A model generated the notes under the pieces. The model was not told the origin of the DNA. It saw nothing but the letters and a program-made list of their open reading frames with translations, and did no database searches. The position numbers and the translations under genes were made by a program. This document shows, piece after piece, positions 15,854-61,346 of a DNA stretch of 64,000 nucleotides (positions within the stretch are counted from its first letter, which is position 1; every line of letters begins with the position of its first letter). This DNA is from Ralstonia sp. 25mfcol4.1 (GTDB lineage: Bacteria > Pseudomonadota > Gammaproteobacteria > Burkholderiales > Burkholderiaceae). The stretch covers positions 1 through 64,000 of the forward strand of contig NZ_FNJO01000002.1 of assembly GCF_900104095.1 (NCBI RefSeq). Reading direction: 5' to 3'.

Positions 15854-17572
15854 TCAGAACAGGAAGTAGCGTTGCGCCATCGGCAGCACCGTGGCGGGCT
15901 CGCACATCAGCAACTGGCCGTCGGCCACCACCTGGTAGGTTTCGGGGTCCACGGTCACGTGCGGCTGCCAGTCATTGTGAACCATATCGCGTTTGCTGAC
16001 CGTGCGGCATCCGCGCACGGCGGCCAGTGTCTTGGCCAGACCGTAGCGCCCGCCCACATCGGCCGCCAGTGCCGCCTGCGAGACAAACGTCAGCGACGAC
16101 TTCGGCAGTGCACCGCCGGCCGACGCGAACATGGGCCGGTAATGCACCGGCTGCGGCGTCGGAATCGACGCATTGGGGTCGCCCATGGCCGCCGCCGCGA
16201 TCATGCCGCCCTTCATGATCAGGCTCGGCTTCACGCCGAAGAACGCCGGCTTCCACAGCACCAGGTCGGCCCACTTACCCACCTCGATCGAGCCCACCTC
16301 GTGCGCGATGCCGTGCGTCAGCGCCGGGTTGATCGTGTACTTGGCGATATAGCGCCGCACGCGGAAATTGTCGTGGCCACCGCGCGCGTCGTGCGGGTCG
16401 CCGGGCAGCTTGCCGCGCTGGGCCGCCATCTTGTGCGCGGTCTGCCAGGTGCGGATGATGACCTCGCCCACGCGGCCCATGGCCTGGGAATCGCTGGAAA
16501 TCATCGAGAACGCGCCCAGGTCGTGCAGGATGTCCTCGGCGGCGATGGTCTCGCGCCGGATGCGCGATTCGGCAAACGCGATGTCCTCGGCGATGGCCGG
16601 ATCCAGGTGATGGCAGACCATCAGCATGTCCAGGTGCTCGTCCAGCGTGTTCACCGTGTACGGCCGCGTGGGGTTGGTCGACGACGGCAGCACGTTCGAT
16701 TCCCCGCACACCTTGATGATGTCCGGCGCATGGCCGCCGCCCGCGCCCTCGGTGTGGTACGTATGGATCGTGCGGCCCTTGAATGCGGCGATGGTCGCCT
16801 CGACGAATCCGCCTTCGTTGAGCGTGTCGGTGTGGATGGCCACCTGCGTGTCGGTATCGTCCGCCACGGACAGGCAGGTGTCGATGGCCTGCGGCGTGGT
16901 GCCCCAGTCCTCGTGCAGCTTCAGGCCGATGGCGCCCGCTTCCACCTGTTCGGTCAGCGGCCCCGGCTGGCTGGCGTTGCCCTTGCCCAGGAAGCCGATG
17001 TTCATCGGGTAGGCATCGGCCGCCTGCAGCATGCGCTCCATGTACCACGGCCCCGGCGTGACGGTGGTGGCAAACGTGCCTGTGGCCGGCCCGGTGCCGC
17101 CGCCGATCATCGTGGTCACGCCGCTCATCAGCGCCTCGTCGATCTGCTGCGGGCAGATGAAGTGGATGTGCGTGTCGATGCCGCCCGCCGTGACGATCAT
17201 GCCCTCGCCCGCGATCACCTCGGTGCCGGGGCCCACGACGATGGTCACGCCCGGCTGGATGTCGGGGTTGCCGGCCTTGCCGATACCCGCGATGCGGCCG
17301 TGCTTGAGGCCGATGTCAGCCTTGACGATGCCCCAGTGGTCGATGATCAACGCATTGGTGATGACGGTGTCCACGCAATCCTTCGACATGCGCTGGCTCT
17401 GGCCCATGCCGTCGCGAATCACCTTGCCGCCGCCGAACTTCACCTCCTCGCCATAGATCGTGAAGTCCTTTTCCACCTCGATGACCAGGCCGGTGTCGGC
17501 CAGCCGCAGGCGGTCGCCGGTGGTGGGGCCGAACATCTCGGCGTAGGCCTGCCGTGAAATCTTCACGCTCAT
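15854..17572 (-). CDS. ureC: Urease subunit alpha UreC
   Basis: The 572-residue catalytic subunit that hydrolyses urea to ammonia and carbamate in the cytoplasm. All nickel and catalytic residues are present, each one position later than in Klebsiella urease: H135 and H137 in GGIDTHIHF, carbamylated K218 in [10 protein letters not shown]247 and H273 as ligands, and the flap C320-H321 in [19 protein letters not shown] holds the last Asp region. The ATG at 17572 overlaps the ureB stop by one base (TGATG), so translation is coupled; the GTG one codon earlier is less likely. Length is normal and the enzyme should be active. Confidence 0.98.
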
Positions 17573-58957: not shown

Positions 58958-60499
58958 TCAGATCTGCGGATTGATCTTCTGCACGGCCTTGTCGTGCAGC
59001 TTGTTCAGTGCGGCCAGGTAGGCCTTGGCCGATGCGGCGACGATGTCCGGATCGGTGCCCACGCCGTTGACGATGCGGCCGGCCTTGGACAAGCGCACGG
59101 TCACTTCGCCCTGGGCCTGCGTACCGGCCGTGATGGCGTTCACCGAATACAGCACCAGTTCGGCGCCGCTGTTCACGCGGCCTTCGATGGCGTGCAGCGT
59201 CGCATCCACCGGACCATTGCCTTCTGCCTCGCCCGCCTGCTCCGCGCCATCGATGTTGAACACCACGCGGGCATGCGGACGCTCGCCGGTTTCCGACCGT
59301 TGCGACAGCGACACGAAGCGATAGTGCTCGTTGGCGTTTTCCTGCTCTTCGTCGGAAACGATCGCCAGGATGTCTTCGTCGAAGATCTCAGCCTTCTGGT
59401 CGGCCAGTTCCTTGAAGCGGGCGAATGCGGCGTTGATTTCGGCTTCGCTTTCGAGCTCGATGCCCAGTTCCTGCAGGCGCTGCTTGAATGCATTGCGGCC
59501 CGAGAGCTTGCCCAGCACGATCTTGTTGGCGGTCCAGCCCACATCTTCCGCGCGCATGATCTCGTAGGTGTCGCGCGCCTTGAGCACGCCGTCCTGGTGG
59601 ATGCCCGAGGCATGGGCAAACGCATTGGCGCCCACCACGGCCTTGTTCGGCTGCACCACGAATCCGGTGACTTGCGACACGAGCTTGGATGCCGGCACGA
59701 TCTGCGTGGTGTCGATGCCAACGTCCATATTGAAGTAGTCGCGGCGCGTCTTCACGGCCATCACCACTTCTTCCAGGCTCGTATTGCCGGCACGCTCGCC
59801 CAGGCCGTTGATGGTGCACTCGATCTGGCGCGCGCCGCCCAGCTTCACGGCAGCCAGCGAATTGGCCACGGCCATGCCCAGGTCGTTATGGCAATGCACC
59901 GACCAGACCGCCTTGTCCGAATTCGGAATCCGCTCACGCACCGAACGGATCAGTTCCGCGTAGCCTTCCGGCACGGCGTAACCCACGGTATCCGGCAGGT
60001 TGATCGTGGTCGCGCCTTCGGCAATCACGCCTTCGAGCACGCGGCACAGGAAGTCCATGTCCGAACGGCTGCCGTCTTCGGGCGAAAACTCGATATCGTC
60101 CGTGAACTGACGCGCAAAGCGCACGGCCAGGCGGGCTTGCTCGTAGACCTGGTCCGGCGTCATGCGGAGCTTCTTCTCCATATGCAGCGCGGACGTGGCG
60201 ATGAACGTGTGGATACGGAACGAGTTGGCCGGCTTCAGGGCCTCGGCCGCACGCGCGATGTCCTTGTCGTTGGCGCGGGCCAGCGAGCAGATCGTCGAAT
60301 CCTTGACGACCTGGGCAATCGAGCGGATCGCTTCGAAATCGCCATTGGAGCTGGCCGCAAAACCGGCCTCGATCACATCGACCTTCAGACGTTCCAGCTG
60401 ACGCGCAATGCGGATCTTCTCCTCGCGGGTCATGGACGCACCGGGTGACTGCTCGCCGTCGCGCAAGGTGGTGTCGAAAATGATGAGTTTGTCAGACAT
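58958..60499 (-). CDS. leuA: 2-isopropylmalate synthase
   Basis: A 513-residue enzyme that condenses acetyl-CoA with 2-oxoisovalerate, the first step of leucine synthesis, in the cytoplasm. The TIM-barrel domain has [15 protein letters not shown] near 9-23, metal-binding [12 protein letters not shown] near 200-211 and the [17 protein letters not shown] segment; the C-terminal LeuA regulatory domain from about 390 binds leucine for feedback control. AGGAGCTCC precedes the ATG. A leader peptide and attenuator hairpin lie upstream, and no other leu gene is adjacent. Confidence 0.97.
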
Positions 60500-60579
60500 T
60501 TTGTGGAGCTCCTGGGCTGTGCCTTATGTACTGGTCCGCCGTCCCGCTATCACGACACCGGGCATTCGAATCGGAATGC

Positions 60580-60619
60580 AAAACGCCCCGGCGTGCATGA
60601 ATGCAGGCCGGGGCGTTTT
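60580..60619 (-). terminator. leuA attenuator hairpin
   Basis: AAAACGCCCCGGC (60580-60592) pairs with GCCGGGGCGTTTT (60607-60619); the loop itself can pair TGCAT with ATGCA. On the minus strand it ends in TTTT and lies between the leader peptide and leuA. Confidence 0.8.
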
Positions 60620-60662
60620 CAAAATCCTGGTGATTTCCGCGCCAGGGCGGTAACCGAGTCCC

Positions 60663-60743
60663 TTAGCGCGCGCGCGTCCCGACCTGATGGCCTAGTAGGC
60701 CACCTAGGGTGGTGCGGGCGATCAGGGTCTGGTGCGAAATCAT
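60663..60743 (-). CDS. leuL: leuA leader peptide
   Basis: A 26-residue open frame read on the minus strand as MISHQTLIARTTLGGLLGHQ then VGTRAR and TAA. Four leucines are present: one CTG, then CTA, CTA and CTA in a cluster of five codons (CTA GGT GGC CTA CTA). CTA is expected to be one of the least used leucine codons in such a GC-rich genome, which is a mark of attenuation leaders. The region overlapping these codons can fold (GGCCTACTAGGCC). A hairpin with a T-run follows 43 bases later. It has no ribosome-binding site, and the promoter predicted at 60751-60779 would start transcription about one base before its ATG, so it may be translated without a leader. No protein product is needed for function. 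Confidence 0.8.
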   Translation of the reverse strand: MISHQTLIARTTLGGLLGHQVGTRAR

Positions 60744-60750
60744 GTCGGCG

Positions 60751-60779
60751 ACTATAGCTGGTTTGCTGCGCCTGCGCAA
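60751..60779 (-). promoter_or_regulatory. Sigma-70 promoter of the leuA leader
   Basis: On the minus strand TTGCGC (60779-60774) and TATAGT (60756-60751) are separated by exactly 17 bases. The predicted start is near 60744, next to the leader ATG at 60743. Confidence 0.7.
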
Positions 60780-60784
60780 CCGGG

Positions 60785-61288
60785 TTATTTCGGAGGAATG
60801 CGCAGTTTTTGGCCCGGGTAGATCTTGTCCGGGTGCGTCAGCATCGGCTTGTTGGCTTCGAAGATCTTGTTGTATTCGGCGCCATTGCCGTACGCAGCCT
60901 GGGAAATCGCCCAGAGCGTATCGCCCTTCACCACGGTGTGCCATTGCGACTCGGCGGTCTCCACATTGACCGACATCTTGTCCTCGACCGAGTCCACACC
61001 TTCCACATTGCCGCAGCACAGGATGATCTTCTCGCGCGTGGCCTGGTCCGGCGCCACGCCGAATACGGTGACCTTGCCCTGCGATCCATCCACGGTGACG
61101 GTCAAGCCCGTGGCGGACAGCCCCATCTGGGCGATATAGGCCTCGATCGCGTCGCCGGCCGCGCGGTTGGCCGCCTCGGCCTTGTCGCTTGCGGACGGAT
61201 CGGCCTTGGCAGCCTCCTGTGCCGCCTTCGCCTCACCCTTGCCGAACAGTTTCTCTCCCGCTTCCTTGATGAAGTCGAACATGCCCAT
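60785..61288 (-). CDS. kbp: BON and LysM domain protein, Kbp/YgaU-like
   Basis: A 167-residue cytoplasmic protein with a helical N-terminus (MGMFDFIKEAGEKLFGKG), an Ala-rich linker, a BON domain near 45-108 (DGSQGKVTVFGVAPDQATRE) and a C-terminal LysM domain near 115-165 (YHTV-type start HTVVKGDTLWAISQAAYG and HPDKIYPGQKLRIP). E. coli Kbp (YgaU, 149 residues) has the same order and binds potassium. It lacks a signal peptide, as Kbp does. AGGAGA precedes the ATG. It stands between pssA and leuA, after the pssA terminator. Confidence 0.92.
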   Translation of the reverse strand: MGMFDFIKEAGEKLFGKGEAKAAQEAAKADPSASDKAEAANRAAGDAIEAYIAQMGLSATGLTVTVDGSQGKVTVFGVAPDQATREKIILCCGNVEGVDSVEDKMSVNVETAESQWHTVVKGDTLWAISQAAYGNGAEYNKIFEANKPMLTHPDKIYPGQKLRIPPK

Positions 61289-61308
61289 GACATTCTCCTG
61301 AGGTTGTG

Positions 61309-61346
61309 GAACGGAAAAACAAAGGGCGCCCAATGAGCGCCCTTTT
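61309..61346 (-). terminator. Terminator of pssA
   Basis: AAGGGCGC (61322-61329) pairs with GCGCCCTT (61337-61344); on the minus strand TTTGTTTTTCC follows. Confidence 0.85.

Follow-up and report, generated by a model that had tools for sequence, protein, structure and literature searches.

A predicted leuA attenuator with a leucine leader peptide apparently translated from leaderless RNA in Cupriavidus and related bacteria

The leuA gene in the DNA analyzed here is very probably controlled by a ribosome-mediated transcription attenuator whose leader peptide is encoded on a leaderless RNA. This is the best reading of the comparative evidence, which supports what the first-pass annotation of the window (the whole stretch of DNA that was analyzed, 64,000 nucleotides) had proposed for this locus. 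Its basis is the sequence, the conservation of the parts, the spacing of the promoter, the lack of a Shine-Dalgarno-led alternative, and the complementarity between leader and terminator.

The source genome is Cupriavidus or close kin as judged by LeuA, which shares 100% identity with the Cupriavidus sp. U2 protein and 98% with the C. pauculus protein (rounded values). The parts of the locus, with the evidence for each, are as follows.

60785..61333, minus strand: BON-LysM gene 5' of the leader; its stop codon lies 5 nt from the -35 element
60774..60779, minus strand: -35 element, TTGCGC (sequence)
60751..60756, minus strand: -10 element, TATAGT, 7 nt (CGCCGAC) 5' of the leader ATG (sequence)
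60663..60743, minus strand: leader ORF MISHQTLIARTTLGGLLGHQVGTRAR, 26 codons plus TAA (60665-60663); a homologue is present in 22 of the 22 same-genus genomes drawn
60743-60741, minus strand: leader ATG (sequence)
60705..60707, minus strand: CTA codon 13 (sequence)
60693..60698, minus strand: tandem CTA CTA, codons 16 (60698-60696) and 17 (60695-60693), putative stall site
60675..60684, minus strand: putative antiterminator strand GGTCGGGACG, overlapping the V-G-T codons of the leader (folding, duplex energies)
60580..60619, minus strand: predicted intrinsic terminator, 13-bp stem with an inner TGCA/TGCA extension and a U run in the 3' arm
58958..60499, minus strand: leuA, 2-isopropylmalate synthase, 513 aa, the gene under control (Pfam PF00682, PF22617, PF08502)

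Three elements of this layout had been named beforehand, and each was found in the sequence: the promoter TTGCGC-N17-TATAGT at 60779-60751, minus strand, with its 17-nt spacer; a 26-codon frame that starts at 60743 and has three CTA codons in five (codons 13, 16, and 17); and a 13-bp hairpin at 60580-60619, about 80 bases before leuA. The stem is perfect, its arms AAAACGCCCCGGC (60619-60607) and GCCGGGGCGTTTT (60592-60580) enclose a 14-nt middle, and the distance from the terminator to the leuA ATG (60499) is 80 nt.

CTA is rare in this DNA: it makes up 27 of the 18,241 codons in the 40 long ORFs of the window, or 1.7% of Leu codons, and at least three CTA within five codons occur in three places in 64 kb, all six frames considered. 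The 184-nt leader RNA folds far better than its shuffles (z = -5.3). A generic promoter and terminator scanner, applied to 60300-61300, reported neither the leader promoter nor the hairpin. TTGCGC matches three of the six positions of its -35 consensus, where four are required, and by our reading of its rules the hairpin was missed because its U run is part of the stem and its 14-nt middle is longer than the loop limit allows. Since these features fall outside the scanner rules, its negative result was set aside. No Rfam leader family matched anywhere in the window at the gathering score. A search of 60450-60850 with E values up to 10 returned four sub-threshold matches (PtaRNA1, two microRNAs, and ncS54), none of them a leader family; all cover the terminator hairpin and were rejected. 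For ncS54, described as a B. cenocepacia sRNA (PMC5688073), membership was rejected at 15.1 bits against a gathering score of 43. An in-frame TTG at -36 was rejected as a start codon, as it is the -35 element itself. Elsewhere in the window, far from the leuA leader, positions 17136-17417 of the plus strand gave a strong Rfam match to 5_ureB_sRNA (RF02514, 135 bits).

For comparative analysis, leuA regions were collected at several taxonomic levels. The family-level draw yielded LeuA in 177 of 200 genomes, including 22 of the same genus (own genome included), 16 of a sister genus (LeuA identity 90-92%), and 139 others; upstream regions were taken for all of the 22 and 16 and for 52 of the 139. 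At the order level, 80 of 130 matches were taken, of which 64 were readable, and 80 named loci were added. The total came to 234 readable regions, or 169 after dereplication. At the class level, 29 loci were taken from the top of a longer match list, in addition to the own genome, and 27 of them gave readable regions. We classed a leader as leaderless when an ATG frame of 10-45 codons with at least three Leu codons in eight was preceded, 6-8 nt 5' of the ATG, by a TAnnnT box (at least 4/6 positions matching); this spacing was chosen after first looks at the data. A stricter scan, requiring three Leu codons in six, misses loci L025-L040, which the rule of three in eight recovers. Clade groups were assigned by peptide or terminator motifs, not by taxonomy. 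Some of the regions selected are probably chance hits, such as L235, which resembles the tail of an upstream gene, and L306 at the class level, which looks spurious.

Close relatives keep the whole arrangement. The leaderless spacing, the leader frame, the tandem CTA-CTA, and a strong terminator were found in all 22 same-genus genomes (own included) and all 16 sister-genus genomes, and the GGTCGGG of the antiterminator strand was present in 38 of these 38. The joint retention of leader, CTA-CTA, terminator, and promoter spacing in 38 of 38 genomes speaks for an attenuator. The first-pass annotation had also suggested checking whether the CTA codons and a palindromic fold are kept. The tandem CTA (38 of 38) and the palindrome core CCTACTAGG (37 of 38) are, but the exact palindrome GGCCTACTAGGCC occurs in only 15 of 38.

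Beyond these genera, 34 of the 52 other family regions carry a leaderless Leu frame. Eight dereplicated regions that lack one come from genus g10 or from Pandoraea, its named relative (L057, L060-L063, L066, L076, and L104), and two g10 genomes (L045 and L046) do have one. At the Pandoraea loci L101 and L104, a -10 box is followed after 7 nt by a short MISG frame in which few Leu codons cluster, and inspection of L066 (genus g10) by eye revealed a terminator-like hairpin with a T run at the leader position instead. The ilvI upstream region of the source genome (L283), also checked by eye, showed no leader of the leuA kind.

Across the order, a leaderless leader was detected in 104 of the 169 dereplicated regions (160 of 234 before dereplication), compared with a mean of 0.9 (range 0-3) in 30 dinucleotide shuffles; -10-like boxes at other spacings were seen in 0-9 of the 169 regions. 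The distance from -10 box to ATG was 7 nt in 68 leaders, 6 nt in 33, and 8 nt in 3. Among features that lie outside the selection criterion, the 104 leaders have TTGC at -36 to -33 and a C at -1 (79%). A -35 TTG at a spacer of 16-18 nt, likewise not selected for, was present in 84 of the 104 dereplicated leaders; in seven control windows the count was 1-10. Of the 38 families from which a region could be read, 21 contain one or more leaderless leaders. Outside the order but within the class, such a leader was found in 9 of 27 readable regions (best matches, L295-L323), and one of the nine is probably spurious.

A Shine-Dalgarno core precedes 1 of the 104 selected leaders versus 100 of the 104 leuA ATGs; the first count is depressed in part by the selection itself, since the -10 box occupies the positions concerned. 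A fairer test drops the -10 condition. ATG-initiated Leu frames were then found in 126 of 169 regions (shuffle mean 44.5, range 35-55), and those with a Shine-Dalgarno core in 2 of 169 versus a shuffle mean of 3.6 (range 1-8). When the 65 of 169 dereplicated regions without a leaderless leader were scanned for Leu frames with a Shine-Dalgarno core, none was found (0 of 65).

At the locus in the window, the -10 element fits a start of transcription at the start codon, and no Shine-Dalgarno sequence precedes the leader ATG. The leader could instead be translated from a longer read-through transcript of the BON-LysM gene, with the -10-like box incidental; gene and leader share a strand, 5 nt separate the end of that gene from the -35 element, and some read-through RNA perhaps occurs as a minor species. 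Against this, Leu frames carry a Shine-Dalgarno core no more often than in shuffled sequence (2 of 169 versus 3.6), and both -10 and -35 spacing are conserved across the order. We consider such an origin of the leader very improbable. Because the -10-to-ATG spacing of 6-8 nt is conserved, the -35 element and the C at -1 were not selected for, and Leu frames led by a Shine-Dalgarno core are rare (2 of 169), translation of the leader from leaderless RNA, which the first-pass annotation had suspected from one sequence, is supported, short of proof, with transcription predicted to start at or next to 60743.

The codons that the ribosome would read were examined together with the tRNAs of the genome, where 53 tRNA matches were found and 42 were identified with ARAGORN, including all 12 of at least 81 nt. 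The tRNA-Leu anticodons identified were CAG (three times) and UAA, UAG, CAA, and GAG (once each). The tRNA-Leu gene in the window has the GAG anticodon and, as had been noted from the sequence, is not the reader of CTA. The further inference that a different tRNA serves as sensor holds as well: one tRNA-Leu(UAG) gene, cognate to CTA, lies on another contig. ARAGORN also identified a tRNA-SeC gene in this genome (contig C20:357212-357342, L294), which would suggest selenocysteine use. The share of CTA among leader Leu codons was 0.62 in Cupriavidus/Ralstonia, 0.56 in the Burkholderia-type, and 0.50 in the Comamonadaceae-type leaders, and 0.15 in the other 47. With CTA at only 15% in these 47 leaders, the rare codon is not essential to the architecture; it may tune the device in some clades.

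The terminators differ by clade. A terminator of at least 10 pairs was found in 15 of the 15 dereplicated Cupriavidus/Ralstonia-type leaders, the window included (mean of 0.0 over 10 shuffles). With a threshold of at least 8 pairs, terminators were found in 15 of 15 Cupriavidus/Ralstonia-type, 14 of 15 Comamonadaceae-type, and 10 of the 47 other leaders (shuffle means 0.0-0.3), and in none of the 27 dereplicated Burkholderia-type leaders. The Burkholderia-type loci (e.g., L049, L087, and L085) keep the leaderless, CTA-rich leader. The region 3' of it has a conserved hairpin with no U tract, which in many loci reads GCGTCGCC-AGC-GGTGGCGC, and a C-rich stretch. RNAalifold analysis of 26 Burkholderia-type leaders gave hairpins with little two-sided covariation and no clear helix that would sequester a Shine-Dalgarno sequence.

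That 0 of 27 Burkholderia-type leaders have an intrinsic terminator shows that such a leader may serve another output. The leader in the window might accordingly act on leuA through translation or Rho, and the actinobacterial LEU element, for which pairing of Leu codons with the leuA Shine-Dalgarno sequence has been proposed (PMC1262725), offers an example. We regard this as unlikely for the window, as terminators of at least 10 pairs were present in all 15 Cupriavidus/Ralstonia-type leaders, that of the window among them, against a shuffle mean of 0.0. A broader reading, of somewhat less than even probability, is that leaderless initiation is ancestral for leucine leaders at leuA across beta-proteobacteria and some other gamma-proteobacterial orders of GTDB, and that the sensor was kept while the output was exchanged. 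The output would be intrinsic termination in Cupriavidus, Ralstonia, Polynucleobacter, and Comamonadaceae-type leaders; in Burkholderia and relatives it would be terminator-free, acting either through Rho or at the ribosome-binding site of leuA, and the CTA codons would sit within a palindrome resembling GCGCTAGCGCTAGCGC.

The strand at 60684-60675 is complementary to the 5' arm of the terminator. Tested on single sequences, this complementarity is of modest significance in these GC-rich leaders: for the window, the duplex has p of about 0.1, and 4.3% of shuffled tails equal it. Terminator arms were also swapped among groups of leaders. In three clades with different terminators, the arm pairs best on average with the leaders of its own clade. 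Mean duplex energies with own versus other leaders were -20.9 versus -15.0 to -16.7 kcal/mol for the Cupriavidus/Ralstonia arm, -12.0 versus -9.3 to -10.1 kcal/mol for the Comamonadaceae-type arm, and -14.8 versus -6.7 to -9.4 kcal/mol for the Polynucleobacter-type arm. A fourth, mixed group of five leaders showed no preference for its own arm (own -8.4, others -8.6 to -10.2). For Comamonadaceae-type and Polynucleobacter-type leaders, the long Cupriavidus/Ralstonia arm is an even better partner than the arm of their own group. Of the 34 leaders in the three clades, 29 have a pairing that reaches to within 8-13 nt of the last base of the stop codon.

These pairings also bear on whether the small frame is a chance ORF and the hairpin no more than the terminator of the BON-LysM gene, with a leuA promoter further downstream. 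There is room for a promoter in the 80 nt between terminator and leuA; the scanner found none there, but it also missed the leader promoter. Two findings argue against a chance ORF: all 38 close relatives, own genome included, have kept the promoter spacing, the leader frame, and CTA-CTA, and in three clades the terminator arms on average prefer own-clade leaders. We find this explanation scarcely credible.

From the attenuator reading we infer the exact start site, ribosome loading, stalling, and a change in read-through. Transcription would begin on the A of the leader ATG or next to it, giving a 5'-terminal AUG on which a ribosome would load. With ample charged tRNA-Leu(UAG), the ribosome would reach the stop codon and cover the V-G-T codons, so that the terminator at 60619-60580 would form and leuA would be left unread. 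When leucine is short, the ribosome would stall at the CTA codons and leave GGUCGGGACG free to pair with the emerging 5' arm of the terminator, and the polymerase would continue into leuA. With no ribosome, the leader's own folding would, in the model, hide the antiterminator strand, and termination would be expected.

Constrained folding of the window RNA, with the front edge of the ribosome assumed to lie 12 nt after the first A-site base, is consistent with this scheme. With the 3' arm still unsynthesized, the model has 6.9-7.9 antiterminator pairs whichever of the three CTA codons the ribosome occupies, as opposed to 0 when it has reached the stop codon and 0.04 when the RNA carries no ribosome. 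Among 39 dereplicated terminator-bearing leaders, 38 show at least four leader-arm pairs in the stalled state, a count that has no shuffled control, and 20 also show at least four without a ribosome (the window has 3.6 by this broad count). In the folding model, hiding of the strand in the absence of a ribosome is thus not general among these leaders. The whole terminator, once made, dominates at equilibrium in every modelled state of the window RNA, and the switch would therefore need kinetic trapping.

Textbook attenuators load the ribosome on a Shine-Dalgarno site, and the leu leader of E. coli and Salmonella uses a ribosome-binding site. In a large part of one bacterial order (104 of the 169 dereplicated regions), the leuA leader appears to dispense with the Shine-Dalgarno sequence, so that leaderless loading must set when the first ribosome arrives relative to RNA polymerase. 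The leuA leader thus offers a testable system for leaderless initiation on nascent RNA. For annotation, it provides a rule, i.e., a short Leu-rich frame with a -10 box 6-8 nt 5' of it, and the terminator-free Burkholderia-type version raises the question of how a similar sensor controls leuA.

According to a review (PMC6123439, citing Vitreschak et al. 2004), various Gram-negative bacteria have putative leader peptides and terminators in front of genes for branched-chain amino acids, and the 2004 survey may already list leuA attenuators of this group. Transcription start studies of B. cenocepacia and C. metallidurans report many leaderless mRNAs (PMC4603805, PMC7563307), with one mention in PMC9045368; the main texts of these three articles yielded no leuA or leader peptide, and leuA and leucine are both absent from the main text of a 2010 survey of premature terminators (PMC2965389). 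In the literature searched, mostly by title and abstract, we found no description of a leaderless leucine leader at a beta-proteobacterial leuA. Leaderless leucine leaders are known elsewhere, and it is the conserved leaderless leuA design in this order for which these sources gave no description.

Among leaders at leuA, one has been described in Corynebacterium (PMC4046766). The actinobacterial LEU element (PMC1262725) resembles the window in having an upstream ORF with a run of Leu codons before leuA; it is described as not classical attenuation and differs in its proposed base stem, formed by Leu codons and the leuA Shine-Dalgarno sequence, and pseudoknot. The leu operon attenuator of E. 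coli and Salmonella, with a 28-aa peptide containing 4 Leu (PMC6123439), shares with the window the Leu codons in a leader peptide and the attenuation of leu genes, whereas the window matches no Rfam leader family. The alpha-proteobacterial leaderless trp leader to which the leuA leader had been likened is a real precedent: the trpL/rnTrpL transcript of Sinorhizobium meliloti is stated to have its 5' end at the leader ATG (PMC7298713). It is likewise a proteobacterial attenuator with a choice between terminator and antiterminator on an RNA that begins at the leader ATG, as predicted for the window, but it senses tryptophan, precedes trpE(G), and belongs to an alpha-proteobacterium. Leaderless leader peptides have also been reported for leuL1 (at leuA) and leuL2 (at leuS) of Streptomyces lividans (PMC8079986). 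Both are Leu-rich like that of the window, and leuL2 is followed by a hairpin and a U stretch, whereas leuL1 lacks the typical intrinsic terminator that leuA of the window has; they belong to another phylum and encode other peptides, and the codons of the window are CTA.
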